From: Mucilaginibacter daejeonensis
GTDB lineage: Bacteria; Bacteroidota; Bacteroidia; Sphingobacteriales; Sphingobacteriaceae
Length of the DNA stretch: 64,000 nt
Direction of reading: 5' to 3'
Assembly: GCF_020783335.1 (NCBI RefSeq)
Contig: NZ_CP086068.1
Location: 2,046,001-2,110,000 of the forward strand
Position numbers and translations under genes: made by a program. Position 1 is the first letter of the stretch. Each line of letters begins with the position of its first letter. The notes beneath the pieces were generated by a model that was not told the DNA's origin, did not search any database, and was given only the letters and a program-made list of their open reading frames with translations. Positions 3,660 to 52,095 of this stretch are shown here, piece after piece.

Positions 3660-4895
3660 TCAAGCGACCGACAGACCTTTAAGCTTACCTTTCAACGCTG
3701 CCATATCTTCACTCACTTTCCTTTCGATAACTTTCGCATAGACTTGTGTCGAACGCATTGATGTATGACCAAGAAGCTTACTGACCGTCTCTATTGGCAC
3801 TCCGTTTACGAGCGTTACCGTAGTTGCAAAAGTGTGCCTGGCCATATGAAAGGTGAGGACTTTGTTGATCCCACATAGTTCAGCAAGTTCTTTGAGGTAG
3901 CTATTCATTTTTTGATTGGATAATTTGGGGAAGATCGTTCCATTCGCCGCTGCTCGTACGTTTCCCTTGTATTTCATCAATAACCGCTCTGGTTCGTTGA
4001 GTACCGGAACATTGACGGGGATGGTGGTCTTCTGGCGAAAAGTCTTGATCCACAATCCGCCGTCCTGCCCTTTAACCAGGTTGTCTGGCGTAAGCTCCAT
4101 CACATCGACGAAGGCGAGCCCGGTGTAGCAGGCAAATACGAATATATCCCTTACGACACTCAATCGAGGTAGTAGCAGATGTTTTTGCTCCAGTGCAGCC
4201 AGCTCGTCAGAGGTTAAAAAGTCTTTCTCCACGCGATCAAATTTCAATTGATACTTTTCGAAAGGGTCACGGTATAACCACTCGATCCGGCAAGCCAAAT
4301 TGATCATCTTTTTGAACCGTTCAAGATGCTTCATAATCCCGTTGGTTGTTAATGGCTTTTGATGATCGACCGGCTGGTGATTGCGAAGGAATACCTCAAA
4401 ATCCTGAATAAACTTGTAATTGAGCTCTGATAAAAAGAATGATCTTCTCTTTAACTTGTTACTCACAAATTCCCGCAAGTACTTCTGGGTAGTGTAGTAA
4501 TTTTTCATGGTCGCTGGAGCAAGTACACCTTGAGAAGTTTCATTATGATACTCAGCAATTTCTTCAAGGGTGTGTTCATCATCACCACTTTTCAAAAAAG
4601 CGTTCTTAACCGCATCGGCACTGATCACACGCCTTTTGAGTTGTAACTCCCGGTAACATTCTCCCAATACCTGTCTTACCTCTTCCAGGTAGATGTTGAG
4701 CTCCCTGCCTTCAGCGGTCGTCGTTTTGCCCATACCTTTCCGAACGTCCCAGCACCTTGTAGCAACGCTCTGTTTGAGTGCCAGCATGGCTTTCTCTCCA
4801 TTGACTTTAATTGCCGCATAAACCGGCGCTTTTCCTTCTTTGCCTTTTTCTGTCCGCAAATTGAAGTGGACACTGAATGTGTTGATCGCTTTCAT
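3660..4895 (-). CDS. Tyrosine-type site-specific integrase (Bacteroidota CTnDOT-like)
   Basis: A 411-residue recombinase with the three-part layout usual for Bacteroidota mobile elements. Residues 1-90 are an arm-type DNA-binding region (FSVHFNLRTEKGKEGKAPVY), about 105-200 the SAM-like core-binding domain, and 210-400 the catalytic domain. The catalytic HxxR (HMARH), the second histidine in LLGHTS, and the nucleophile tyrosine in TQVYAKV are visible. The position of the first catalytic arginine reads TGLAFVDV, with no Arg, as is usual in IntDOT relatives. It probably excises and integrates the adjacent element, with the tRNA-Pro gene about 300 bp away the likely target. The ATG at 4895 is the natural start. 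Confidence 0.9.
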   Translation of the reverse strand: MKAINTFSVHFNLRTEKGKEGKAPVYAAIKVNGEKAMLALKQSVATRCWDVRKGMGKTTTAEGRELNIYLEEVRQVLGECYRELQLKRRVISADAVKNAFLKSGDDEHTLEEIAEYHNETSQGVLAPATMKNYYTTQKYLREFVSNKLKRRSFFLSELNYKFIQDFEVFLRNHQPVDHQKPLTTNGIMKHLERFKKMINLACRIEWLYRDPFEKYQLKFDRVEKDFLTSDELAALEQKHLLLPRLSVVRDIFVFACYTGLAFVDVMELTPDNLVKGQDGGLWIKTFRQKTTIPVNVPVLNEPERLLMKYKGNVRAAANGTIFPKLSNQKMNSYLKELAELCGINKVLTFHMARHTFATTVTLVNGVPIETVSKLLGHTSMRSTQVYAKVIERKVSEDMAALKGKLKGLSVA

Positions 4896-5130
4896 AACAT
4901 TGATCTAATTAAACCATTTGCATTTATTGGGTATTAAATCATACCGAATGGCATCAAAAGATCAGCTCAAATCAGCGCAAAACAACGCAGGTTCGTTGCC
5001 TTGTAATTTATTGTATTACAGTGATTTAAACCACTTTTGAATACCTCAAAAGTATGAAACGAAAAGAGGTGTTCAGTTAGGTGACGGATAACTTGCGATG
5101 ATTTGATATAATTTGCGTTGGCAGGAAAAC

Positions 5131-5166
5131 AAAAAAGCCTGTAAATCAATGATTTACAGGCTTTCC
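5131..5166 (-). terminator. Intrinsic terminator downstream of tRNA-Pro
   Basis: AAAGCCTGTAAATCA and its exact complement form a stem of up to 15 bp (5134-5164). On the minus strand it is followed by six T residues (5136-5131). It lies 24 bp past the tRNA 3' end, so it ends the tRNA transcript and separates it from the integrase gene. Confidence 0.8.
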
Positions 5167-5189
5167 ATATCGTTTGATATGTGGTATCG

Positions 5190-5263
5190 TCGGGATGGCA
5201 GGATTCGAACCTGCGGCCTCCACATCCCAAATGTGGCGCGATACCGGGCTACGCTACATCCCG
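5190..5263 (-). tRNA. tRNA-Pro (anticodon TGG)
   Basis: A 74-nt minus-strand tRNA. The acceptor arms CGGGATG (5263-5257) and CATCCCG (5197-5191) pair fully, with discriminator A at 5190. The anticodon stem is CCACA/TGTGG with loop TTTGGGA, giving anticodon TGG (proline). The T-loop GTTCGAATC is canonical. CCA is not encoded. A consensus promoter lies just upstream and a terminator just downstream. Its 3' end faces the integrase, the usual arrangement when a tRNA gene serves as attachment site. Confidence 0.95.
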
Positions 5264-5273
5264 AAAGGGTTTG

Positions 5274-5304
5274 CAAAGGTAAGATTATTTAACTGCTTTG
5301 CAAA
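5274..5304 (-). promoter_or_regulatory. Bacteroidota sigma-A-type promoter of tRNA-Pro
   Basis: On the minus strand, TTTG (5304-5301) is followed by a 19-nt spacer and TACCTTTG (5281-5274). This matches the Bacteroidota consensus (TTTG, about 19-21 nt, TAnnTTTG). The predicted start falls about 4 nt before the mature tRNA 5' end at 5263. Confidence 0.75.
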
Positions 5305-5661
5305 TTTTATTTTAACAAAGTTTAAAGTTGTTGTCATTTTTGCAATGCCGTTTCCTTTAAACTGTCGCAAAGATAGCGCGGCTTTGCGTATTTGCAAATC
5401 AAAAAATACTTTGTACGGCTAACAGGCAGGTAATGAGTACGAAAAAATACAAAACAGGCATTCCTATGGCAACATTACGTTAATGTTAGCCTGACAACAC
5501 CATGGGGCAGCGACCTGCCGATGGTTCTGAAAGGGATAGACCATGTTCTGATCAAGGGGTATTGGTGATGGCTTGTGGTTAAGCAGGGTCAGCAAACTTT
5601 GCCTTCGACTTATTGTTGTTCAAATCTTTGATCGCGAAAATTCCCGTTCACACAATAATTC
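5305..5661. other. Intergenic region between tRNA-Pro and alaS, no gene seen
   Basis: No convincing reading frame is present. The only structure noticed is a small hairpin at 5468-5491 (GGC-AACATTA / TAATGTT-A-GCC, loop CGT) without a T-run, so it is not a typical terminator. Its role is unknown. Confidence 0.3.
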
Positions 5662-5669
5662 TATCTTTG
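5662..5669 (+). promoter_or_regulatory. Probable -7 element of alaS
   Basis: TATCTTTG fits TAnnTTTG and ends 20 bp before the ATG at 5690, implying a short leader. No good -33 TTTG is seen at the usual distance, so the call rests on the -7 box and its position. Confidence 0.4.
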
Positions 5670-5689
5670 CCAACTTATATTTCCCATAA

Positions 5690-8332
5690 ATGATGACGGC
5701 TCAACAGATACGCCAGGCTTTCCTGGACTTTTTTGCTTCTAAAGGACATGTGATCGTGCCATCGGCACCCATAGTGGTCAAGAACGACCCAACACTCATG
5801 TTCACCAACGCGGGCATGAACCAGTTCAAAGATGTGTTTTTGGGTGAAGCCGATGCCAAAGCGCCGCGCGTTGCTGACACCCAACGTTGTTTGCGTGTAT
5901 CAGGCAAGCATAACGATCTTGAAGAGGTGGGAGTAGATACTTATCACCATACCATGTTCGAGATGTTGGGCAACTGGAGCTTTGGCGATTACTTTAAGAA
6001 GGAAGCGATCGAGTGGAGTTGGGAATTGTTGACCAGCGTATATGGTCTGCAAAAGGACCGCCTGTACGTGACCTATTTTGAAGGTGACGAAAAGGAAGGA
6101 TTAGTTAAAGATCAGGAAGCTTATGATCTGTGGAAACAGTTCGTAGCGGAAGACCACATCTTACCGGGCAATAAGAAAGATAATTTTTGGGAGATGGGGG
6201 AGACAGGTCCTTGCGGGCCATGTTCAGAGATCCATTATGACGGCCGCACCGATGAGGAGCGTGCCAAAGTAAGCGGCGCCACGTTGGTAAATGCAGATGA
6301 TCCGAATGTGATCGAGATCTGGAACAATGTGTTCATGCAGTTCAACCGTTTAAAGGACGGCTCATTGCAGCCACTGCCGGCCCGCCACGTGGATACCGGC
6401 ATGGGCTTTGAGCGTTTGGTGCGCGTGTTGCAGGGCAAGACCTCTAACTACGATACTGATGTTTTTATGCCGCTGATCCAGTTCTTGTCAGAAAAGAGTG
6501 ACAAGAACTATAATGCTGCTGCCACTCCCGGCACTGAAGGCTGGAACGAAGCTGTGGCCATGCGTGTGATGGCCGATCACATCCGTGCTATCAGCTTTGC
6601 CATTGCCGATGGTCAGCTGCCATCAAACAATAAAGCGGGTTATGTGATACGCCGCATCTTGCGTAGGGCAGTACGTTATGCTTATCAGTATTTAGGTTTT
6701 AAAGAACCGTTCCTGAACCAATTAGTGCCATTGTTGGCCGACCAATTCCAAGGCGTTTTCGATGAGTTATACTCTCAGAAAGACTTTGTACAAAAGGTCG
6801 TACTGGAGGAAGAGGTCGCCTTTCTACGCACCCTTCAAAACGGTATCACGCAATTTGAGCAAGTGGTATCTGGCGCGAACGATAAGGTCATTGGGGGAGC
6901 GTTCGCGTTCGAACTTTCTGACACATTTGGTTTCCCACTGGATCTTACTGAACTGATGGCCCGCGAGCGTGGTTTTACGGTAGATGTAGATGGTTTTAAC
7001 CAAGCACTTCAACAACAAAAAGATCGCTCACGTGCTGCTACGGCTATTGATACAGGCGATTGGACCGTGATAAGAGATGAGGATAGCGTAGAGTTCACTG
7101 GTTATGATGAGACCGAGGCCATCGCGCACATCGTTAAATACCGTAAGGTGAAGGCTAAAGGGAAAGAACAATACCAAATCGTGCTGGACAAAACCCCTTT
7201 TTATGCTGAAAGTGGCGGCCAGGTAGGCGACACTGGTGACCTGGTATTCCCTGACGGCGAGATCGTGAAGGTGACCGATACTAAAAAGGAGAACGGTTTG
7301 ATCGTGCATTTTACAGATGTGCTGCCTAAAAGCTTGAATGATGCGCTGACGGCCATCGTTGATGAAGAACGCCGTTCAAGTATCGAGAGCAACCACTCGG
7401 CCACGCACTTGCTGCATGCGGCCATGAAACAGGTATTGGGTGCCCATGTCAATCAAAAAGGGTCTTTAGTGAATGCCGACTACCTGCGTTTCGACTTTTC
7501 ACACTTTAGCAAGGTGACCGATGAGGAAATGGCACAGATCGAGGCCATCGTTAACCAAAAGATCAGAGATAATATCGCCTTAAAAGAGGAGCGAAGCGTA
7601 CTTTACGCCGAAGCCATCACCAGTGGAGTTACTGCACTGTTCGGCGAAAAATATGGTGAGTACGTGCGCGTGATCACTTTTGATGATGATTTTTCGAAAG
7701 AGCTTTGCGGTGGAACGCACGTAAAGGCTACAGGTCAAATTTCCTATTTCAAGATTGTGGCCGAGAGCGCTGTAGCTGCTGGTGTACGACGCATAGAGGC
7801 CATTACCGGCATAGCGGTGGCTAATTACATCAATGAGCAAACTCAATTGGTAAGCCAGTTGAAAGATTTGTTGAAGAACCCTAAAGACATCGCCAAAAGC
7901 GTAGAAAGCCTGCTTGATGAGAACACTCGTTTAAAAAAGGAGATAGAACGCTCTGTACTGGAAAAGGCCGCAGGTTTGAAGACCGAACTGGCAGCAAAGG
8001 CAGAACAGCTGAACGGTATTAATCTAATAGCTGAAAGGGTACAGTTACCTAATGCCGAAGCGATCAAGAACCTGGCTTATCAACTGAAAGATATCGTTAC
8101 TGATCTTTACTGTGTATTGGTTGCCGATATAGATGGCAAACCGAACATCACGGTGATGATTGCCGAGAATTTAGTGAAAGACAAAGGCCTCAACGCGGGC
8201 AACATCGTGCGCGAATTAGCCAAAGAGGTTCAGGGTGGTGGTGGCGGTCAACCTTTCTTTGCTACCGCAGGTGGTAAAGATGTAAGCGGTCTTGATCGTG
8301 TGCTCGAAAGAGCCAAGACTTTTATTAGTTAA
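5690..8332 (+). CDS. alaS: Alanyl-tRNA synthetase
   Basis: An 880-residue cytoplasmic class II enzyme that charges tRNA-Ala. The N-terminal catalytic core is clear (RQAFLDFFASKGH, MFTNAGMNQFKD, TRCLR-like QRCLRVSGKHNDLEEVG). The editing domain carries the zinc ligands H569xxxH573 (NHSATH) and C673xxxH677 (CGGTH). The C-Ala domain ends in the glycine-rich GGGGGQPFFATAGG motif. The length is normal for the family. Two ATGs occur in tandem (5690 and 5693) and either may be used. It is a single-gene unit with a -7 box upstream and a strong terminator at 8354. Confidence 0.98.
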   Translation: MMTAQQIRQAFLDFFASKGHVIVPSAPIVVKNDPTLMFTNAGMNQFKDVFLGEADAKAPRVADTQRCLRVSGKHNDLEEVGVDTYHHTMFEMLGNWSFGDYFKKEAIEWSWELLTSVYGLQKDRLYVTYFEGDEKEGLVKDQEAYDLWKQFVAEDHILPGNKKDNFWEMGETGPCGPCSEIHYDGRTDEERAKVSGATLVNADDPNVIEIWNNVFMQFNRLKDGSLQPLPARHVDTGMGFERLVRVLQGKTSNYDTDVFMPLIQFLSEKSDKNYNAAATPGTEGWNEAVAMRVMADHIRAISFAIADGQLPSNNKAGYVIRRILRRAVRYAYQYLGFKEPFLNQLVPLLADQFQGVFDELYSQKDFVQKVVLEEEVAFLRTLQNGITQFEQVVSGANDKVIGGAFAFELSDTFGFPLDLTELMARERGFTVDVDGFNQALQQQKDRSRAATAIDTGDWTVIRDEDSVEFTGYDETEAIAHIVKYRKVKAKGKEQYQIVLDKTPFYAESGGQVGDTGDLVFPDGEIVKVTDTKKENGLIVHFTDVLPKSLNDALTAIVDEERRSSIESNHSATHLLHAAMKQVLGAHVNQKGSLVNADYLRFDFSHFSKVTDEEMAQIEAIVNQKIRDNIALKEERSVLYAEAITSGVTALFGEKYGEYVRVITFDDDFSKELCGGTHVKATGQISYFKIVAESAVAAGVRRIEAITGIAVANYINEQTQLVSQLKDLLKNPKDIAKSVESLLDENTRLKKEIERSVLEKAAGLKTELAAKAEQLNGINLIAERVQLPNAEAIKNLAYQLKDIVTDLYCVLVADIDGKPNITVMIAENLVKDKGLNAGNIVRELAKEVQGGGGGQPFFATAGGKDVSGLDRVLERAKTFIS

Positions 8333-8353
8333 AAGGTGAACAAGTTCACATAC

Positions 8354-8390
8354 AAGGCCCGTTCGCGTTTCGCAACGGGCCTTTTCATTT
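8354..8390 (+). terminator. Intrinsic terminator of alaS
   Basis: GGCCCGTT (8356-8363) pairs with AACGGGCC (8374-8381), followed by TTTTCATTTT. It lies 22 bp past the alaS stop. Confidence 0.8.
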
Positions 8391-8394
8391 TCAC

Positions 8395-8814
8395 TTACTC
8401 ACGAATAAAAAGTGTCCTCATAGCATAGGGTTTACCTTTTATGTCTTTAAAGCGTGTCTCCAACAAGAGTTGCTTACCCGAGGTGCGGATCTCAATGTAG
8501 TCGCCGTGATGTTCGGTATCCGCGGGAGAGACCAGCTTACCTTTAACCACTTTAGCGTAATAAGCATCAACACTGCTGGGCTCTTTGGTGATGGTCTGGT
8601 CGTTGATGAGCGCCGTTCCATCTTTGTCGATCGTGATGGTCAAATGCCTTTTTACTCTCGGGTTCACCCATGCGCCCTCATAGCGCTGCCTGCATAGATC
8701 GATGTCGGCTTTGGTCTGAGGTTGAGACCTGAACGCCAACAACGTAAGGCAAAGGCTTACCGAGAAGAGGGTGATCAATGCAGTGTATCTCATGAGGATG
8801 TTTTTGAGTGGCAT
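8395..8814 (-). CDS. Small exported or membrane-anchored hypothetical protein
   Basis: A 139-residue protein with a hydrophobic N-terminal segment (about residues 9-27, ALITLFSVSLCLTLLAF) consistent with a signal peptide or anchor. A second ATG at residue 8 (8793) would give a more compact signal sequence. The rest looks like a small beta-rich domain (HLTITIDKDGTALIND, KGKLVSPADTEHHGDYIEI) and I do not recognise a family. It starts 9 bp after the stop of the TPM-domain gene on the same strand, so the two are almost certainly cotranscribed. Its function is unknown; it may act in the envelope with the TPM protein. Confidence 0.7.
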   Translation of the reverse strand: MPLKNILMRYTALITLFSVSLCLTLLAFRSQPQTKADIDLCRQRYEGAWVNPRVKRHLTITIDKDGTALINDQTITKEPSSVDAYYAKVVKGKLVSPADTEHHGDYIEIRTSGKQLLLETRFKDIKGKPYAMRTLFIRE

Positions 8815-8823
8815 TAGAATATT

Positions 8824-10317
8824 TTACCAGCTGCCACCTGCACCGCCACCACCGGTACTACCGCCGCCATAACTGCTGGAAGATGACGAACCACTGCTGC
8901 TACTGCTGGACGAGGATGAGCTGTTGCTGGTTAGCATCGGTATCACCACCGTCGTGATCACTTCTTCGTGCTTGCAATTTTGGCATACCGCGATCTTTTT
9001 GCCTTGTCCTTGCCGGCTGCGGGTAGGGCTCACAATGGTCTTCAATTCCGGCTTTTTCATGGTCTTGAAGTTGCACTGTGGACACACCGTGTACTTGCCG
9101 TAGTTGTCGGCCTTCTGCTGGATGATCTTAGTCTCACCTGATGGATCCGGTGCCAGCCAAATGTCGTATTGATACACACCAAGCTCTTCTTCCTTGCGCT
9201 GCCCCTCTGATAGGTAAGGGGTACCATCTATGTTTTGGTCACGGTCCACGCGTTGAAGGGTATTGCCGTTTTCGTCCAATAACGGTGTGAAGCGCTCGGT
9301 ATACTTCTTTCGCTTTAACGACTCTATGATGAGAACAACTATAATAAGAGGGGAGAAAATGGCTGCCCACCAGGTGGCTTTGATGTATCGCTGTTTAGCG
9401 TTGTAAAAGTTAAGATCATCAAAATGGGCCTTCCTTACAACGCCCAGGGAACCTATATAAAAAAGCAGCGTTATTACTGCGAACAAGCAGCCGACGATGA
9501 TCACACCACTCATAGTGCTTGATCCATCCCACATTGCAAATTTGGTAAATCCGGATACGATCAACACGACCAATACGATCAAAAATAGCGCGATACCCAT
9601 ACCAGCGCTCCACATCTGATATGAGTTGCTATTCTTCGTTTTGTTTTTCGGTACTGCAGGGCTTTTTTTTACAATATAGCCTATCATCAGTATGAACACG
9701 AGGCTCGTTATGGCACTTAAGATCAGAAATGTGGGGAGGTCAAAGTTGCTAACGCCCTTTTTATGGAGTAAAGCTTGAAGTTCTTTATGATTAGCCGGTT
9801 GCTGCAAATATGCGGCTACCGTTTCCATAGCAGCTATGATGCCTTGGCCATACTCTTTTTGTTTGAAAGCAGGTACCAGGTCATTTTCACCGATCAGTTG
9901 CAGGTCGTGGTCAGGTAACAGACCCTCCACGCCGTAACCGGTCACGAAGCGGTAGCGGTGCCGGTCGATCACCACCATCAATAACAATCCGTTGTCTGCG
10001 TATTTCTTACCGATGCCCCATTTGCGGAATAGCTCTACGGCTGCATCGAACTCATCGTCGTTCTCGGGCAGGTCATGGATCACTACAATGGCGGTCTGTA
10101 CACCGGTCTTTGCTTCCATGGTATCAATGATGCTGTTCAGCGAAACGGTCTCTGATGATGTGAGGATACCGTCGGGGTCGCTCACGGATCCTTGGTGTAG
10201 CTCACGTGGGTTGGGTATATCATCCACCTTGTACTTTTGTTGCGCGTAACTAAACTCAAGGTTTAGGGTCAGCGATAGGAGCATCGCCATACGCAGTACA
10301 TATCCAAAAAGCTGCAT
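8824..10317 (-). CDS. TPM-domain (YgcG/Psb32-type) membrane protein with zinc ribbon and Ser/Gly tail
   Basis: About 497 residues from the preferred ATG at 10317; a longer frame starts at 10356, but the signal peptide (MQLFGYVLRM...FSYAQQ) fits the shorter form. A TPM domain follows (IPNPRELHQGSVSDPDGIL, NGLLLMVVIDRHRYRFVTGYGVEGLLPD). Several hydrophobic helices come next (SAITSLVFILMIGYIV, IALFLIVLVVLIVSG, a third and fourth after that). Near the C-terminus is a CxxC...CxxC zinc ribbon (CPQCNF, CQNCKH), then a serine run and a GGGSTGGGGAGGSW tail typical of the family. TPM proteins act in the envelope, and some are phosphatases or photosystem-assembly factors; the role here is unknown. It is the first gene of a two-gene operon. 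Confidence 0.85.
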   Translation of the reverse strand: MQLFGYVLRMAMLLSLTLNLEFSYAQQKYKVDDIPNPRELHQGSVSDPDGILTSSETVSLNSIIDTMEAKTGVQTAIVVIHDLPENDDEFDAAVELFRKWGIGKKYADNGLLLMVVIDRHRYRFVTGYGVEGLLPDHDLQLIGENDLVPAFKQKEYGQGIIAAMETVAAYLQQPANHKELQALLHKKGVSNFDLPTFLILSAITSLVFILMIGYIVKKSPAVPKNKTKNSNSYQMWSAGMGIALFLIVLVVLIVSGFTKFAMWDGSSTMSGVIIVGCLFAVITLLFYIGSLGVVRKAHFDDLNFYNAKQRYIKATWWAAIFSPLIIVVLIIESLKRKKYTERFTPLLDENGNTLQRVDRDQNIDGTPYLSEGQRKEEELGVYQYDIWLAPDPSGETKIIQQKADNYGKYTVCPQCNFKTMKKPELKTIVSPTRSRQGQGKKIAVCQNCKHEEVITTVVIPMLTSNSSSSSSSSSSGSSSSSSYGGGSTGGGGAGGSW

Positions 10318-44536: not shown

Positions 44537-44568
44537 CTTGCATGTTACTACCGATCAATATAATTTTG
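44537..44568 (+). promoter_or_regulatory. Promoter of the GNAT/E1-nitroreductase cluster
   Basis: TTG (44538-44540) is followed by a 20-nt spacer and TAATTTTG (44561-44568), a good match to TTTG/TAnnTTTG. The leader to the ATG at 44624 would be about 50 nt. The rest of the 304-bp gap between 44319 and 44623 shows nothing else. Confidence 0.55.
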
Positions 44569-44623
44569 TGCGCGATCAACCTACAATGTTCGTTTAACGC
44601 AAACGAACTTCACCTGGTAGTTA

Positions 44624-45433
44624 ATGGAACAGACATTAAACAAGGATAAGCCTGAAGTAAGGCTACGAGCTTTCAGAGCTATCGACGAACCACATACCTG
44701 CCAGTTATTCATCGAAGGGCATACTCATGTACTCACCAGTATCGGCGTCACTAAAGTGACCTCATCTAAGAACGAATGGACCGAGAATCCGGCCGCGTTC
44801 GTGATGGTGGTGGAATCAATGGACGGCAAAAAGGTGTACGGAGGAGCCCGTGTACACGTGGCCGGCGGTTCGCAGCTGTTGCCTATCGAGCAGGCCACCG
44901 GCCGCATGGACCCGGGGATATTTGACCTGGTGTGGCGCTTTGCCCAGCAAGGCACTGGCGAACTTTGCGGCCTTTGGAACTCGCGCGAGATCGCCGGCTA
45001 CGGTATCGGCAGTATCTTCCTGATCCGTACAGCGGTGGCTATCTCTTACCAGATCGGCATACAATCGTTATTTGCTTTATGTGCTCCATACACCATCCCG
45101 CCGGGTGAGGCCGTGGGGATGGAGATCGAACTGGGGATCGGTAACAATGGTACCTTTTATTATCCCAAGCTGGATCTGTTAGCTACCACCATGATCCTTA
45201 AGGATGTGCCAACATTGAAAAAGGCTTACGAAGAGGACAAGGCGGCCATCATGAAGATCCGCGAGAACCTCAACATCATCCGCAACGAGGTGCTGCGCAA
45301 AAAGGAGATCACTATCCATTACGAGATCGAGATACCGCACTTGGATCAGTGGGACCTCAAGGCCACCATAGCTAATGCCCAAAGCAATTACAACAGCGCC
45401 AAGTTCAAGGAAGAAGACCCTGAGATATTGTAA
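44624..45433 (+). CDS. Putative GNAT-fold acyltransferase-like protein
   Basis: A 269-residue protein of uncertain family. Residues 10-190 look like a GNAT fold of the type seen in acyl-amino-acid or autoinducer-like synthases: RLRAFRAIDEPHTCQLFIEGH, a strand pair VYGGARVHVAGGSQLLPIE, ELCGLWNSREIAGYGIGSIFL, IGIQSLFALCAPYTIP and a C-terminal strand NGTFYYPKLDLLATTMIL. The C-terminal 70 residues are a charged coiled-coil-like extension (EDKAAIMKIRENLNIIRNEV). No catalytic residue can be assigned with confidence. It lies 83 bp upstream of the E1-nitroreductase fusion on the same strand and probably works with it. Confidence 0.55.
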   Translation: MEQTLNKDKPEVRLRAFRAIDEPHTCQLFIEGHTHVLTSIGVTKVTSSKNEWTENPAAFVMVVESMDGKKVYGGARVHVAGGSQLLPIEQATGRMDPGIFDLVWRFAQQGTGELCGLWNSREIAGYGIGSIFLIRTAVAISYQIGIQSLFALCAPYTIPPGEAVGMEIELGIGNNGTFYYPKLDLLATTMILKDVPTLKKAYEEDKAAIMKIRENLNIIRNEVLRKKEITIHYEIEIPHLDQWDLKATIANAQSNYNSAKFKEEDPEIL

Positions 45434-45516
45434 ACTTTGACCTCACGGTCGTGTTTATTTTGAGGTGCGCACAACGTTTTTGTTTGAACGCCGTATAAAT
45501 ACCTCAATTCATAACC

Positions 45517-47820
45517 ATGACCGATAATCTTTCTACCATATACCCAAATTCGGCAACAGATCTGGTATTCCGCCCGTTGTTCTTCAGGCTGGCCCTTGCT
45601 GACGATAAAAAAGCATTAGATACGCTCATCTTCGATGGGAAGATCCTGCATACGCATAACGAGATATACACACAACTTCAGGAACTGATCAAAAGCATGT
45701 ACCCGGCGGAGCGTATCACGCCCGATCGGTACAGCCAGCTGATCGAAGCCCATTTGAACGGCACACCAGCCGATGAGTACGGCGTATGGGTATATTACCC
45801 TTGGAACGGCCGCCTGGTACACCTGTTGGACGAGGAAGAATTTGTGGAAGTACGTACCAACCGTAACCGCTTAAAGATCACCCGTAGCGAACAGAGACTG
45901 TTGAAGCAGAAAAAGATCGGCGTGGTTGGTCTATCAGTAGGGCAGTCCATAGCGCTTACCCTGGCTATGGAGCGCACTTGTGGCGAACTTCGCCTGGCTG
46001 ATTTTGACACGGCCGAGCTAAGCAACCTGAACCGCTTGCGTACCGGCGTGCACAACATGGGCATCAAAAAAACGGTGATCGCTGCCCGTGAGATAGCCGA
46101 GATCGATCCTTACATCCACGTGAAATTATATCACGATGGTTTGACCAAAGAGAACATGGACGATTTCTTCACCGCTGACGGCAAGCTTGACCTGTTCATT
46201 GAGGTGTGCGATGGCATGGATATTAAGATCGAGAGCCGTTTCAAAGCTCGCGAGCTGCAGATACCGGTGGTGATGGATACCAACGATCGCGGTATGCTTG
46301 ATGTGGAGCGCTTTGACCTCGAACCTGAGCGCCCGATATTACATGGCCTTGCGGACGGCCTCGACCCCGACAACATCAAAGACCTTTCTAACGAAGACAA
46401 GATACCTTACATCCTGAAGATGGTAGGCGCCGAGACCATCTCGACCCGCTTAAAAGCTTCGATGATGGAGGTGCAGCAATCGATCAATACCTGGCCGCAA
46501 CTGGCCTCGTCGGTAGTACTGGGCGGCGCCTTAACCACTGATGTGTGCCGACGGATACTGCTGGACCAGTTCCGTTCGTCGGGTAGATATTATGTTGACC
46601 TTGACGAACTAGTGAAGGATGAGGAAATATTGTCAACAGAGGTCGATCCTTCATATATCGGTCCGCCGGAGCTGACCGAGGAAGATATGCTGAAAGCTGC
46701 CGAGCAGATCGAGGGTAGCACTGAAGGCATCACGCTTGATCAGAATATTGCTACGCAGATCGCGCAGGCCGGTGTGATCGCGCCATCGGGTGGTAACGCC
46801 CAGCCTTGGAAGCTATTGTACACTGACAAAGGTTTGCTGGTATTCCATGACGCGCACCACTCGCACTCGTTCCTTGATTTTGAGCATTTAGGCTCATATG
46901 TAGCCATCGGCGCATTGGTCGAGAACGTGGCCATCAAGGCATCTACTTTTGGCTTAAATATCAAGACCGAATATTTCCCGCTGCAAGGCGACCGCACATT
47001 GGCAGCACGGGTCATCTTTACCGAGGCAAGTTCTGCGGCCTACGAGCCTGCGTTGGAAAAAGGACTGAACATACGCGTGACCAACCGTGACAAAGTTGAA
47101 AAAGAACGACTGGCCCCGCCTGTAGCTGATCAACTGATCAGCGTGACCGAAGCATATGATGGCGCTAAATTGCAGCTCATCACCGATGACCAACTAATGA
47201 AGCAAGTGGGCGATCTGGCGGCCCGTGCCGAGATGATGCGCATCTTGCACCCACGCGGGCATTACGATACCTTCACTAACGAGCTACGCTGGAGCACCGA
47301 AGAAGCTGAACGCACGCTGAACGGCCTCGATGTGAATACTTTGGGCGCCTCTAAAGGCGAGATCGCTGCCTTGGGAGTAGCCAAGGATGCCAAAGCCATA
47401 GCCTTTTTGCGTGAACAGCAGGGTGGTATAGCCTTCACCAAAATGGTGAACAACGCCATCGCTTATTCATCGGCTATCGGTATCGTGACCATGCCGCAGT
47501 ATTCCGCTGAGGATTTCGTGAAAGGTGGCCGGGCGGTGGAGCGTTTATGGATAGAGGCAAACCTTGCAGGGCTTTCGTTCCAGCCGGTGGCGCAATTGGT
47601 GTTCATGACGGCCAGGACAACCTATGATGCACCTGCCACTACCGAACAGGAAAAGCTGTATCACGCTGAAGTAAGCCAGTTACAGCAGCAACTACATGCA
47701 TTATTACCGCAGATCGGCGAACAGCAACCTGTATTCATGTTCAGGCTGGCTAAGGGCGGGCAGCCAAAGGCACGGTCATTGCGCAGGCCACTTTCAGCAA
47801 CGTTCAGTTATAAAGTTTAG
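45517..47820 (+). CDS. E1-like (ThiF) and nitroreductase fusion protein, Rv1355c/MoeY type
   Basis: A 767-residue fusion. Residues 1-125 are an N-terminal region of unknown type. Residues 130-340 are a ThiF/MoeB-like adenylating domain: IGVVGLSVGQSIALTLA (a variant of the usual G-x-G-x-x-G), LADFDTAELSNLNRL and VMDTNDRGMLDVERFD. No CxxC pairs are seen, so the structural zinc site of MoeB/ThiF is absent. Residues 410-745 are an FMN nitroreductase-like domain, beginning GVIAPSGGNAQPWKLLY (about 420) and ending WIEANLAGLSFQPV. The architecture matches mycobacterial Rv1355c (MoeY), whose substrate is unknown. A carboxylate or peptide may be adenylated and then oxidised or reduced; this is inference. 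Confidence 0.85.
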   Translation: MTDNLSTIYPNSATDLVFRPLFFRLALADDKKALDTLIFDGKILHTHNEIYTQLQELIKSMYPAERITPDRYSQLIEAHLNGTPADEYGVWVYYPWNGRLVHLLDEEEFVEVRTNRNRLKITRSEQRLLKQKKIGVVGLSVGQSIALTLAMERTCGELRLADFDTAELSNLNRLRTGVHNMGIKKTVIAAREIAEIDPYIHVKLYHDGLTKENMDDFFTADGKLDLFIEVCDGMDIKIESRFKARELQIPVVMDTNDRGMLDVERFDLEPERPILHGLADGLDPDNIKDLSNEDKIPYILKMVGAETISTRLKASMMEVQQSINTWPQLASSVVLGGALTTDVCRRILLDQFRSSGRYYVDLDELVKDEEILSTEVDPSYIGPPELTEEDMLKAAEQIEGSTEGITLDQNIATQIAQAGVIAPSGGNAQPWKLLYTDKGLLVFHDAHHSHSFLDFEHLGSYVAIGALVENVAIKASTFGLNIKTEYFPLQGDRTLAARVIFTEASSAAYEPALEKGLNIRVTNRDKVEKERLAPPVADQLISVTEAYDGAKLQLITDDQLMKQVGDLAARAEMMRILHPRGHYDTFTNELRWSTEEAERTLNGLDVNTLGASKGEIAALGVAKDAKAIAFLREQQGGIAFTKMVNNAIAYSSAIGIVTMPQYSAEDFVKGGRAVERLWIEANLAGLSFQPVAQLVFMTARTTYDAPATTEQEKLYHAEVSQLQQQLHALLPQIGEQQPVFMFRLAKGGQPKARSLRRPLSATFSYKV

Positions 47821-47907
47821 AAGCTATAGTTGAGCTTAAAAGCTAATTACGCTATTTTTAGCACCGATATAACATTCCGTTACTCCACCCTGTATCATCC
47901 TTATAAT

Positions 47908-50043
47908 ATGAAGCGTTGGTTATCTATTTGTATCCTTCTATTAATATCTATCGTTGCGGCGCAAGCACAGATCACGTACAGTGGTCATAAGCGCATCGCT
48001 ACGGTGGGCGATGGGATAGCTTATTACATCGACTCTTCAGGTAAGCATACCGTTCAGACTATACAAAACCAAGCTAACTTTACCAAGGTGAAGGCCGCGG
48101 TACCAAATCTTGGCCTTACGGATAAACCGGTTTGGCTAAAGGTGGACGTTAAAAATCAGAGTGACCTCAACGACCTGATCCTGCAATTTGATCAGCCATT
48201 ATTAGAGAGTATCACCTTCTATTACCCCGCCAACGGAAGCTTTGCAGGTAATGTGAGCGGCGAACGTTATCCATTTGGGTCACGGCCCGTGAACTATCAC
48301 AAGTTCCTGTATCACTTAAATATCCCTCCGGGCGGATCATCGGTTTACTATGTGCGCATCACCTCAAGCCACCCCATGCAAATGCCGGTGTTCCTGGGTG
48401 ATAAGGAAAGCATAGAGGATCTAAGCATGAGTAAGAACATTCTTTTTGGAGTGTTCTTCGGCATCATCCTCGTAATGTTCTTTTACAATCTGTTCGTGTA
48501 CATCTCGGTGAAAGACCCGATATATATCTATTACGTGATCTACATCCTCGTGGTGGGGCTCACGCAAACCACTATAGAGGGGTATAGCTTCCAGTACCTA
48601 TGGCCTAACAATACGTTCCTGGCTACCCGTAGCTTTTTCCTGTTAACGGCGCTGGTGAACATAACCGGGCTCGAGTTCGTGCGCCAATTCCTGCACACTA
48701 AGGATTACTTACCCAGGTTAGATAAGTTCGCTTTTTTGATCTATGGCGTTTACCTGCTCGTGATCGTGCTTACTGTGCTGGGCCAGTTGCGCTTATCATA
48801 CATGATCCTGCAGGGTTTCGGCGGCGTGGTGTCCCTTTATATGCTGGCCGTGGCTGTGATCATAGCCCGGAGAGGGAACCGTTCCGCCAAGTTCTTCCTG
48901 ATCGCCTGGTTGCCACTCATTGCCGGTATCATTATCTGGATACTTAAGGACATGAACGTACTGCCGTACAACCTATTCACCAATTACAGTATCACATATG
49001 GTTCGGCGTTGGAGGTCATCTTGCTGTCGTTCGCACTGGCTGATAAGATCAACATCTTCAAGGCCGAAAAGGAGCGCTCGCAAGAGGAGACCTTACAAGC
49101 CTTAAAAGAGAACGAACGCATCATCCGCGAGCAGAACGTGATATTGGAGGCCAAGGTGAATGAACGAACGTTGGAATTAAGCAAGGCCAACAGCGAATTG
49201 AACGTTACGCTGGAGGACCTCAAGCAGGCACAAACGCAATTGGTAGAATCTGAAAAAATGGCCTCCCTGGGTCAGTTGACGGCAGGTATTGCGCACGAGA
49301 TCAATAACCCGATCAACTTCGTGACCTCGAACATCAAGCCGTTGAGGCGCGATATCGAGATGGTGATGGATACATTGCGCACGGTAGAAGGTATAGCCAT
49401 GATGGATATCACCGCCGCTGAAAAGCAAAAGCAGATCGAAGAGCACAAAGAGGACATGGACTTTGAATACCTCCAGGATGAGATCGCTCACCTGATGAAG
49501 GGGATCACCGAAGGTGCCAACCGCACGGCCGAGATCGTCAAGGGGCTGCGTATCTTCTCCCGTTTGGATGAGGACGACCTGAAGCGTGCCGATATCAACG
49601 AGGGTATCGAATCGACGCTGGTGATCGCTAACAACCTGATGGGTAAGATCAGTGTGGTCAAACAGCTTGGGCAGCTGCCACCGATCGAGTGCTATGCTGG
49701 TAAGCTGAACCAGGTGTTCCTGAACATCATCTCCAATGCGGCTTATGCGGTACACAAAAAATTCGGCGATCAGCCGGGTGGGCAAATATCCATCAAAACA
49801 TATAACGACGATCACGACGTTTTCATCGAGCTTTCCGACAATGGGATAGGCATGAGCGAGAAAACGCAGAAAAAGATATTCGAACCGTTCTTTACCACCA
49901 AAGAAGTGGGCGAGGGTACGGGTTTAGGCATGTCAATTGCTTATAATACCATCAAAAAACACAATGGAAACATAACGCTGGAAAGTACTGAAGGTGAGGG
50001 GACAAGCTTTATCATAAAGCTGCCCATCATTTTTGTGATGTGA
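47908..50043 (+). CDS. 7TM-DISM sensor histidine kinase
   Basis: About 711 residues. A signal peptide (MKRWLSICILLLISIVAAQAQ) leads into an extracytoplasmic 7TMR-DISMED2 beta domain (residues 25-160), then seven transmembrane helices (about 175-380), a coiled coil (about 390-445) and the kinase. The phosphoacceptor is H463 in GIAHEINNP. The HATPase domain has the N box (NQVFLNIISNAAYAV), G1 (DNGIGM), the F box and G2 (GEGTGLGMSI). A longer frame starts at 47830, but the signal peptide fixes the ATG at 47908. It senses an extracellular ligand, possibly a carbohydrate, and begins a run of signalling genes. Confidence 0.93.
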   Translation: MKRWLSICILLLISIVAAQAQITYSGHKRIATVGDGIAYYIDSSGKHTVQTIQNQANFTKVKAAVPNLGLTDKPVWLKVDVKNQSDLNDLILQFDQPLLESITFYYPANGSFAGNVSGERYPFGSRPVNYHKFLYHLNIPPGGSSVYYVRITSSHPMQMPVFLGDKESIEDLSMSKNILFGVFFGIILVMFFYNLFVYISVKDPIYIYYVIYILVVGLTQTTIEGYSFQYLWPNNTFLATRSFFLLTALVNITGLEFVRQFLHTKDYLPRLDKFAFLIYGVYLLVIVLTVLGQLRLSYMILQGFGGVVSLYMLAVAVIIARRGNRSAKFFLIAWLPLIAGIIIWILKDMNVLPYNLFTNYSITYGSALEVILLSFALADKINIFKAEKERSQEETLQALKENERIIREQNVILEAKVNERTLELSKANSELNVTLEDLKQAQTQLVESEKMASLGQLTAGIAHEINNPINFVTSNIKPLRRDIEMVMDTLRTVEGIAMMDITAAEKQKQIEEHKEDMDFEYLQDEIAHLMKGITEGANRTAEIVKGLRIFSRLDEDDLKRADINEGIESTLVIANNLMGKISVVKQLGQLPPIECYAGKLNQVFLNIISNAAYAVHKKFGDQPGGQISIKTYNDDHDVFIELSDNGIGMSEKTQKKIFEPFFTTKEVGEGTGLGMSIAYNTIKKHNGNITLESTEGEGTSFIIKLPIIFVM

Positions 50044-50118
50044 ACGAACTTAATTAATGACCGTGCGTAAAAAGACCATCGAAATGTGTATTTTTAGTCA
50101 CCTAACTGATATAAAACA

Positions 50119-51213
50119 TTGATCCCCAACTCAGAAAAGATCAAGATCCTGTACGTTGACGATGAACAGGATAACCTTGTCGGATTCAAAGCGTCGTTGC
50201 GTTTAGATTACCAGATCTATACAGCGGTGAACATACCTCAGGCTACCAGCCATCTGGATAGCCATCCTGATATCAGGATCATATTCTGCGATCAGCGTAT
50301 GCCCGAAATGACGGGCGTACAGTTCTTCGAAAAGATCCGCTCTACCCATCCGCACCCGGTGCGCATTTTGTTGACCGCTTACACCGATGTGGAGTCAATC
50401 ATCAACGCCATCAACAAGGGTCATATTTTTAGGTACCTCAACAAGCCCTGGACCGAAACAGATATCTTATCAGCCATACAGGAGGCCAATAAGTTTTACC
50501 TCACCAACTCCATGTTGTCTGTCAAGAACGAGGAGTTGAACAAGGCCTATAACGAGCTTAACAAATTCGCCTACAGCGTAAGTCATGACATCAGGGGACC
50601 GATAGCCGGCGTGTTGGGCGCCATAAACGTGGCCCGCGAGATAGACGATGTGAACGAGATGCGCGAGATGCTGTATCTGATGGAAAAGTCATTGAAAAAG
50701 CTTGACTCGTACGTGATCAGCATGCATGATTATTATGCCATACAACGCGGTGAATTAAAGATCAAGAACATCGACTTCCAGTTGATGGTGGAGGAGATAA
50801 AGGGTTTTTACGAGGTGATATCCACCCTGGATAATATCGAATTCAAGGTGAACGTAACGCAGGATGCTGTGTTCAGGAGCGATGATACACCTTTGAAATT
50901 GGTGATCAATAACCTGCTCTCTAATGCCTTTAAGTACCAGGATCTGGAACGCCAGCACCGCTCTGTTGAATTAAACATAGAAGTTGTAAAGGGTGTGGCC
51001 ACGATATATGTAAAAGACACAGGAATCGGTATATTAGGCAATCATATCGGCGAGATATTCAACCTGTTCTACCGGGCCACATCGCAGGGGCCAGGCTCAG
51101 GTTTTGGCCTGTACAACGTAAAAAGTGCGCTCCAAAAACTGAACGGGCAGATCGAGGTGAACTCGGTGATGGGACAAGGCACCACCTTTAAGGTGATCAT
51201 TCCATCTATTTAA
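50119..51213 (+). CDS. Receiver-histidine kinase hybrid (REC-HisKA-HATPase)
   Basis: A 364-residue cytoplasmic protein without membrane segments. The REC domain covers residues 8-125 with acidic pair DDE, phosphoacceptor D58 in CDQRMPEMTG and lysine in NKPWTE. HisKA follows with H156 in SVSHDIRGP, then HATPase with NNLLSNAFKYQ, DTGIGI and GSGFGLYNV. The order REC before kinase is reversed relative to classic hybrids and suggests it is controlled by an upstream kinase, probably the 7TM-DISM protein. The start is a TTG; an in-frame TGA lies four codons upstream and no ATG fits. It ends 1 bp before the next receiver gene. Confidence 0.9.
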   Translation: MIPNSEKIKILYVDDEQDNLVGFKASLRLDYQIYTAVNIPQATSHLDSHPDIRIIFCDQRMPEMTGVQFFEKIRSTHPHPVRILLTAYTDVESIINAINKGHIFRYLNKPWTETDILSAIQEANKFYLTNSMLSVKNEELNKAYNELNKFAYSVSHDIRGPIAGVLGAINVAREIDDVNEMREMLYLMEKSLKKLDSYVISMHDYYAIQRGELKIKNIDFQLMVEEIKGFYEVISTLDNIEFKVNVTQDAVFRSDDTPLKLVINNLLSNAFKYQDLERQHRSVELNIEVVKGVATIYVKDTGIGILGNHIGEIFNLFYRATSQGPGSGFGLYNVKSALQKLNGQIEVNSVMGQGTTFKVIIPSI

Positions 51214-51214
51214 C

Positions 51215-51616
51215 ATGATGAGATTAACTTTCATAGTCATTGACGACAGCGAACTGGACCGTTTCATCCTCCGCAGGGTGATCGAGCACCTGAGCGATGG
51301 CTATGAAGTGATCACCTATCGTACCGCTTGGGAAGCGCTTGTGGATATAGAAAGGATAGAAAGAGAGACCTTTACGATGATATTCCTTGACCTGAAGATG
51401 CCGGTAATGGATGGCTTTCAGTTCATTGAGGAATTTGGTAAACTGCCCGAACACATCAAGGACCGGCACCGCATCGTGATCCTTTCTACCACTCGTAATC
51501 CTACTGACATTGCGCGGTTAATGGATAGTGATCTTGTGGATAGTATCGTAGAAAAGCCGATCACCAAGGAGAAATTCAATTCGCTTTTAGGCGCGCTTAA
51601 CACTACGGCGCTTTAA
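51215..51616 (+). CDS. Single-domain response regulator
   Basis: A 133-residue receiver domain with no output domain. The acidic pair is IDDSELDRF, the phosphoacceptor D59 is in FLDLKMPVMDG, the conserved Thr/Ser lies in ILSTTRNP and the lysine in VEKPITKEKF. It resembles Rcp1/CheY-like regulators. It is cotranscribed with the hybrid kinase (1-bp gap) and is probably its phosphorelay partner. Confidence 0.9.
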   Translation: MMRLTFIVIDDSELDRFILRRVIEHLSDGYEVITYRTAWEALVDIERIERETFTMIFLDLKMPVMDGFQFIEEFGKLPEHIKDRHRIVILSTTRNPTDIARLMDSDLVDSIVEKPITKEKFNSLLGALNTTAL

Positions 51617-51630
51617 TGCTGCTCAACTGA

Positions 51631-52095
51631 TCAGGAAAGCAGCTTCTGCCTCAATAAAAATTCGAGCTGGTTGTTGGAGTCTTCCAGCTTTACGTTCATT
51701 TCTTTCAATTCCGCGTTCTCAAGGTATTTCTCATAAGCGCGGTTGATCGTCATGTCCAATTCTTCCTCGTTCCATGGTTTGGCCAGGTAATGGTATATCT
51801 TGCCTTTATTCACCGCATCAACTACGGCCGTCATGTCGGCATAGCCGGTCAGCAAAATGCGCATAGGCTCAGGATCGATCTCGATCACTTTCTCCAGGAA
51901 CTCTACACCGGTCATTTCGGGCATACGCTGATCGGTAATGATGATGTGCACTTTTTTAGCACTCAGCACTTTCAAAGCCTCATCGCCGCTAATAGCGGTA
52001 TAGACCTGATATTTTATACGAAAGGTCGCCTTGAACGAGAAAAGATTATTCTCCTCATCGTCAACGTACAACACTGCGATCTTTTCTGATGCCAT
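51631..52095 (-). CDS. Response regulator with C-terminal coiled coil
   Basis: A 154-residue receiver. Its REC domain (LYVDDEENNLFSFKATFR, TDQRMPEMTGVEFLEKV, LAKPWNEEEL) is a close paralogue of the REC half of the hybrid at 50119, sharing the DQRMPEMTGV block and the KPW motif. The last 35 residues are a coiled coil (AELKEMNVKLEDSNNQLEFLL) with no DNA-binding domain. It converges with the single receiver (14 bp between stops), so it is transcribed separately. Confidence 0.88.
   Translation of the reverse strand: MASEKIAVLYVDDEENNLFSFKATFRIKYQVYTAISGDEALKVLSAKKVHIIITDQRMPEMTGVEFLEKVIEIDPEPMRILLTGYADMTAVVDAVNKGKIYHYLAKPWNEEELDMTINRAYEKYLENAELKEMNVKLEDSNNQLEFLLRQKLLS

Follow-up and report, generated by a model that had tools for sequence, protein, structure and literature searches.

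What do an acyltransferase-like protein and an adenylating enzyme fused to a flavin oxidoreductase make together in Mucilaginibacter daejeonensis, and what is their product for? The two genes lie in a stretch of 64,000 nucleotides (NZ_CP086068.1, positions 2,046,001 to 2,110,000; hereafter the window) from a 4.81 Mb genome held in a single contig. Both open reading frames (ORFs) are intact on the forward strand, at 44624-45433 (269 amino acids; gene A) and 45517-47820 (767 amino acids; gene S). An earlier account drawn from the letters alone, the sequence-only reading, took the pair for a modification pathway, for small molecules or peptides, and stopped at 47820. The two genes are real, but the unit continues to 52095. 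Past S lie the gene for a sensor kinase and those for three proteins of the response-regulator type, and the conserved receptor kinase, which that reading missed, is the most informative part of the locus. The whole, at 44538-52095, is probably an autoinducer-type signalling cassette, in which the product of A would be capped by a second enzyme and sensed by the adjacent kinase.

For the protein encoded by A, neither a Pfam search nor a profile search against PDB sequences gave a match, and as the latter gave nothing the fold assignment rests on structure. The AlphaFold model (pLDDT 88.5, 50 sequences), compared with the PDB by Foldseek, has FeeM (2G0B) as its top match at E 8e-9, followed by the N-acyl homoserine lactone (AHL) synthases BjaI, MesI, RpaI and LasI, which bears out the acyltransferase-like nature first proposed for this gene. 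By predicted fold, A should thus be an N-acyl amino acid synthase-like acyltransferase of the FeeM / AHL-synthase type. Residues H33, W52, G73-G74-x-R76, E113, W118-N119, G127 and Y180-P181 are conserved in A across 155 loci. At one locus elsewhere (L256, genome G854), two A genes (232 and 231 amino acids) stand in tandem between a fusion gene of the S type and the kinase.

On sequence grounds, S belongs to the TrzS enzyme family. It scores 794 bits (cut-off 476) against the NCBIfam model 'Rv1355c family protein' (NF005901) over amino acids 16-762, and 57.1 bits (cut-off 28.1) against ThiF (PF00899) over amino acids 116-252, the ThiF/E1 adenylation domain at 45862-46272. Amino acids 404-760 (46726-47796) form a flavin-dependent oxidase (FDO) domain with the motif APSGGNxQPW. 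The C-terminal half reaches 112.5 bits with the model for Acg family flavin mononucleotide (FMN) oxidoreductases, under that model's cut-off, and has Acg (2YMV) as its first match both in Foldseek (E 1.1e-13) and by profile (E 6.7e-14), while Pfam Nitroreductase remains sub-threshold at 13.4 bits. The proposed fusion of a ThiF-like with an FMN nitroreductase-type domain, and its assignment to the Rv1355c type, therefore stand. A lack of ATP-binding residues, which by the sequence-only reading's own account would have refuted it, is not what is found: the E1 residues G135xxGxSxG, D162, D164, N170, N172, R173, K185 and D232 show no or almost no variation among 26 fusions (S and 25 relatives), and homologues from mycobacteria, rhodococci and nocardiae conserve them as well. 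D232 is probably the counterpart of TrzS D217, in an alignment that leaves aside the M. smegmatis sequence itself. Overall, S and the actinobacterial proteins share about 34-38% identity.

The chemistry of this family has recently been described. The pair Rv1356c-Rv1355c has been identified as TrzA-TrzS, a producer of N-acyl tryptazolones (PMC12856293, Dec 2025). TrzA (Rv1356c) acylates L-tryptophan; TrzS (Rv1355c) then uses ATP to cyclise the N-acyl-tryptophan and O2 to desaturate it, which gives the oxazolone (PMC12856293). OxzAB and TyzACB follow an equivalent route from tyrosine or phenylalanine. The TrzA-TrzS work has overtaken the earlier statement that the mycobacterial counterpart lacks a known substrate, and the small-molecule part of the original interpretation was right. 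The enzymes A and S are probably a new member of this already known oxazolone pathway. Between A and the rhodococcal TrzA candidates, hhalign gives a weak match (E 0.005, probability 7%).

Several loci elsewhere show other arrangements of the S modules. At L112 (genome G007, 7858-10166), ThiF and oxidase are two overlapping ORFs (545 and 227 amino acids) beside A and the kinase, through either a frameshift or a true split. On a plasmid of Streptomyces sp. NBC_01431 (L125, 8170-11084), the gene after that of a ThiF protein (50% identity to the ThiF domain of S) encodes a beta-ketoacyl-ACP synthase III and not an A-type acyltransferase; at L126 a ThiF gene is followed by a GNAT gene, and both loci possibly encode other small-molecule cyclases. 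A plasmid of Nitratidesulfovibrio vulgaris DP4 (L129, 6101-9070) carries a distant ThiF-FDO fusion of 989 amino acids (about 25% identity), surrounded by exopolysaccharide and PEP-CTERM genes.

The pairing of an E1 with a nitroreductase fold also recalls azole synthetases, a comparison made in the sequence-only reading. An azole-peptide pathway or another one akin to those of ribosomally synthesised and post-translationally modified peptides, or a protein-conjugation E1 with a small carrier protein, is extremely improbable here. A conserved ORF of at least 80 amino acids for a peptide or carrier, which the sequence-only reading had proposed to look for, is absent from the cassettes, and the gap between A and the kinase gene has a median of only 10 nt. 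S contains no CxxC zinc pairs, as had been noted and as reading of the sequence confirms; its homology is to TrzS, whose small-molecule chemistry is demonstrated (PMC12856293), and its partner has the FeeM fold of an N-acyl amino acid synthase. An azole-peptide (YcaO) synthetase was itself considered and rejected, as no YcaO or precursor-peptide gene occurs among the conserved cassette genes of at least 80 amino acids; shorter peptides beyond the 10-nt gaps fell outside that search. The peptide part of the earlier claim is thus left unsupported.

The question of what the product is for leads to the kinase. Its ORF occupies 47830-50043 on the forward strand (likely start ATG 47908) and matches 7TMR-DISM_7TM at 183.7 bits, DISMED2 at 110 bits, and HATPase_c in Pfam; the sensor half (DISMED2 and the seven-transmembrane, or 7TM, domain) lies at 48010-49047 and the kinase half at 49237-50034. 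Three sets of loci that overlap in part were compared, 61 from the same family, 78 named loci and 68 from other families of the phylum, with L135 and L174 left out of the named count because their contigs end too early. A is accompanied by the same 7TMR-DISM kinase in every one of them (61/61, 78/78 and 68/68), in most cases together with the same response regulators, and the kinase is the first or second gene after A on the same strand. The two are co-directional in all 155 dereplicated loci, at the short median gap given above. Presence and absence agree as well: A was found in 86 of 151 same-family genomes and the kinase in all 86, and of the three genomes with a kinase match but no A, two have distant paralogues (35-38% identity) and one is a broken assembly. 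A and S, too, co-occur in other genomes, so that the other refuting condition named in the sequence-only reading does not hold. A signal-synthase-like gene is therefore found in an operon with a dedicated sensor kinase, and the two are co-conserved.

It might be argued that this is an ordinary TrzAS/OxzAB oxazolone lipid operon that lies near a sensor kinase by chance, as the enzyme family and two-gene order are those of trzAS and oxzAB, and as mycobacteria and Rhodococcus have c-di-GMP enzymes as neighbours and not this kinase (PMC12856293). Such a coincidence is very unlikely, given adjacency in all of more than 200 locus reads (counted over the overlapping sets) from many families with differing flanks, and given the agreement in presence and absence across the 151 genomes. 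Recent copying of one locus does not account for it either, since identity among the A proteins is 30-80%.

The enzyme beside A is exchangeable. Each locus apart from L267 has one enzyme in this slot, which can be a ThiF-FDO fusion, ThiF alone (about 365 amino acids) or a class I S-adenosylmethionine (SAM) methyltransferase. In two genomes the slot is filled instead by a membrane protein that belongs to the isoprenylcysteine carboxyl methyltransferase (ICMT) family (PF04140 66-71 bits, cut-off 24; its best NCBIfam model, NF040696, scores under its cut-off). Since a carboxylate is what ThiF activates and what ICMT methylates, we infer that the tailoring enzymes share a task and are alternative means to cap the free carboxylate of an N-acyl amino acid. 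No stand-alone FDO is listed in genomes with ThiF alone, and a saturated ring is predicted there for that reason. At L267 (genome G717, 4293-7093), where A adjoins the kinase and the slot is empty, an uncapped N-acyl amino acid is perhaps the signal.

If the product is what the kinase senses, its sensor half might be expected to follow the tailoring enzyme, and the sensor region of the receptor does vary with the signal-making enzymes, with linkage only partly excluded. Among pairs of loci with kinase-half identity of 0.80-0.95, mean 7TM identity is 0.71 within one tailoring class, falling to 0.40 for fusion versus ThiF alone and to 0.37 for methyltransferase versus ThiF; identity of the RRHK protein, a receiver plus histidine kinase encoded downstream, stays steady at 0.79-0.85. 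The nearest neighbour of a locus is of the same tailoring class in 98 of 99 loci by 7TM, in 83 by A and in 68 by kinase half. On trees of the 155 loci, tailoring class changes 11 times along the sensor, 34 times along A and 42 times along the kinase (about 68 with shuffled labels), and changes between ThiF and methyltransferase number 2, 18 and 21, respectively. Sensor and kinase half of the same protein have come apart on many occasions, sensor and tailoring class almost never. The break between the exchanged portion and the portion kept across tailoring types falls at the end of the 7TM domain, at about residues 390-430.

Exchange is also seen at fixed chromosomal sites. At one site in Mucilaginibacter (L148, L155, L169), tailoring enzyme and sensor differ between loci, and they differ again at one site in a second genus (L061, L106, L093), where the gene order is altered too; the close flanking genes in both sets are mostly 85-97% identical. 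Within the fusion class, sensor identity tracks FDO-domain identity (partial r 0.45, p 0.001, with kinase, A and ThiF allowed for). The closest sensors to that of the window belong to the loci with its closest FDO domains (L132, L137, L138, L151), and not to L131, which holds the closest A.

Not all of the evidence favours a functional link. In loci with the order A, tailoring gene, histidine kinase (A-T-HK), the tailoring gene directly adjoins the sensor half. Their joint transfer could therefore be linkage, and recombination in conserved flanks could move both at once even if they had no functional relation. Where A separates the tailoring gene from the sensor (T-A-HK), label changes number 8, 9 and 9, which is no difference, and the partial correlation is small (r 0.18, p 0.02). 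L267 has neither ThiF nor methyltransferase nearby, and that a carboxylate is the target of the soluble SAM methyltransferase is a guess. Confidence in the AlphaFold model of S is low over the ATP-binding part, and the model is useful for the FDO half only; the integrity of the E1 domain for this reason rests on sequence conservation. The cassette also contains no exporter, and Pfam predicts no DNA-binding domain in any of its receivers, RRHK included, which leaves it without a DNA-binding output of its own.

In a rival account, the two-component system responds to some unrelated cue and controls oxazolone production or an oxazolone-borne response, the product being output and not ligand. The oxazolone would then be a stress lipid, membrane component or antibiotic, a role that agrees with the ties of oxazolones to oxidative stress and drug response (PMC12856293, PMC10404671), and the co-exchange of tailoring gene and sensor would be passive linkage, with recombination confined to the conserved A and kinase half. 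The adjacency in A-T-HK loci and the weak linkage control in T-A-HK loci speak for it. Even so, this account appears unlikely, if by no means far-fetched: receivers without a DNA-binding domain are not ordinary local operon regulators, three unrelated tailoring enzymes track the sensor (with the two ThiF-methyltransferase changes in 155 loci) even though sensor and kinase half have come apart many times, and the matching of sensor and enzyme holds from genus to class scale. The case for signalling is made by three observations taken together: A and the kinase are always paired, one and the same site carries highly divergent sensor alleles, and the sensor almost always keeps to its tailoring class while separating from its own kinase half.

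In the signalling cassette favoured here, the fold and neighbourhood of A suggest that it makes an N-acyl amino acid by moving an acyl chain from coenzyme A or acyl carrier protein onto an amino acid. By homology to the biochemically characterised TrzS, the ThiF domain of S would adenylate the carboxylate and close a 5(4H)-oxazolone ring, which the FMN domain would desaturate with O2. Conservation and co-variation point to recognition of the uncharged, lipid-like product by the periplasmic and 7TM sensor half of the adjacent kinase, which may sit in the producing or in a neighbouring cell. From their domain content, the kinase would pass phosphate to RRHK and the single receivers, and the output is placed outside the cassette because no cassette receiver has a DNA-binding domain. 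In other Bacteroidota, ThiF alone is predicted to yield the saturated ring and ICMT a methyl ester, and such capping variants would constitute different signal types, each with a matching sensor half. With slightly less assurance, we consider it likely that this is a quorum-sensing-like system found across the Bacteroidota, in which an AHL-synthase-fold enzyme and unrelated carboxylate cappers give distinct signal types, with co-exchanged 7TMR-DISM sensor halves on a conserved kinase.

The remaining parts of the cassette are regulatory. RRHK (50119-51213, forward, 364 amino acids) matches Pfam Response_reg, HisKA and HATPase_c, and is followed by a CheY-like single-domain response regulator (51215-51616, forward, 133 amino acids; PF00072 53.5 bits) and by a convergent one of 154 amino acids (51631-52095, reverse; PF00072 70 bits). 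Gene clusters around the 61 same-family loci contain A and the kinase in all 61, the 154-residue receiver in 59, RRHK in 58 and the CheY-like receiver in 42; the 154-residue receiver lies in the upstream flank in some relatives and downstream in others. Neither a third conserved biosynthetic gene nor a DNA-binding regulator was found when sought around the cassettes, and the genes beyond the regulators vary by lineage and look like housekeeping genes. The one good promoter proposed earlier is plausible: a candidate Bacteroidetes-type promoter, TTG-N20-TAATTTTG (-33/-7), lies at 44538-44568 on the forward strand, 56 bp upstream of A, and is the single exact match to TTG-N20-TAnnTTTG on both strands of the window, where 0.68 are expected by chance.

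To our knowledge, no autoinducer system of the synthase and receptor-kinase kind is well characterised in the Bacteroidota. What is new here is the coupling of these enzymes to a dedicated receptor, with exchangeable cappers and matching sensor halves; no precedent was found in the open-access papers searched, none of which described a 7TMR-DISM receptor with an acyl amino acid or the cassette system. The physiological role of oxazolones has been called 'a major unresolved question' (PMC12856293), and the TrzS-type enzymes here are accompanied by a candidate receptor in every genome examined. If the proposal is true, it would provide the first known role for oxazolones, a widespread Bacteroidota autoinducer system with natural signal types, and a ligand class for 7TMR-DISM receptors.

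Among known systems, the enzymes most resemble TrzA-TrzS of M. tuberculosis, M. smegmatis and Rhodococcus jostii (PMC12856293), with a ThiF-FDO fusion of the same NCBIfam family, an acyltransferase gene directly upstream, and E1 and FDO motifs in common. The mycobacterial loci, however, adjoin c-di-GMP genes and have no such receptor kinase, whereas the cassettes here have their own 7TMR-DISM kinase, often lack the FDO and can carry methyltransferases in place of the fusion. On four Rhodococcus plasmids (L128, L310, L311, L312), a GGDEF gene, a convergent gene for a hypothetical protein of ~255 amino acids (a TrzA candidate) and an Rv1355c-family gene are kept together, an arrangement that fits an oxazolone/c-di-GMP link in actinobacteria. 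OxzA-OxzB of Pseudoalteromonas rubra and TyzACB of M. tuberculosis share the logic of N-acyl amino acid to oxazolone (PMC10404671), and TyzA has FeeM and BjaI as fold neighbours (PMC10404671), as A does. TyzB/OxzB belong to another ThiF subcluster (PMC12856293), while S scores to the Rv1355c/TrzS family. Unlike the cassette here, neither system is described with a receptor kinase.

LuxM-LuxN and CqsA-CqsS are autoinducer systems of a synthase and a sensor kinase. In Ralstonia, PhcB makes a methyl ester signal that is sensed by the kinase PhcS (PMC11960443). All three pair an AHL-synthase-like enzyme or a methyltransferase with a membrane histidine kinase, as here; the present cassette differs in its 7TMR-DISM receptor with DISMED2, its predicted oxazolone or presumed ester, and its interchangeable tailoring enzymes. 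ComQXPA of Bacillus, with its pherotype groups, likewise combines a hypervariable receptor N-terminus and hypervariable signal-making genes with a conserved cytoplasmic kinase (PMC4008528), although its signal is an isoprenyl-modified peptide and ComA has a DNA-binding domain, while here an acyl amino acid is predicted and no receiver has such a domain. By analogy, the cassette would work in the manner of LuxMN or PhcBS and diversify in the manner of ComQXPA, while by sequence it is a member of none of them.

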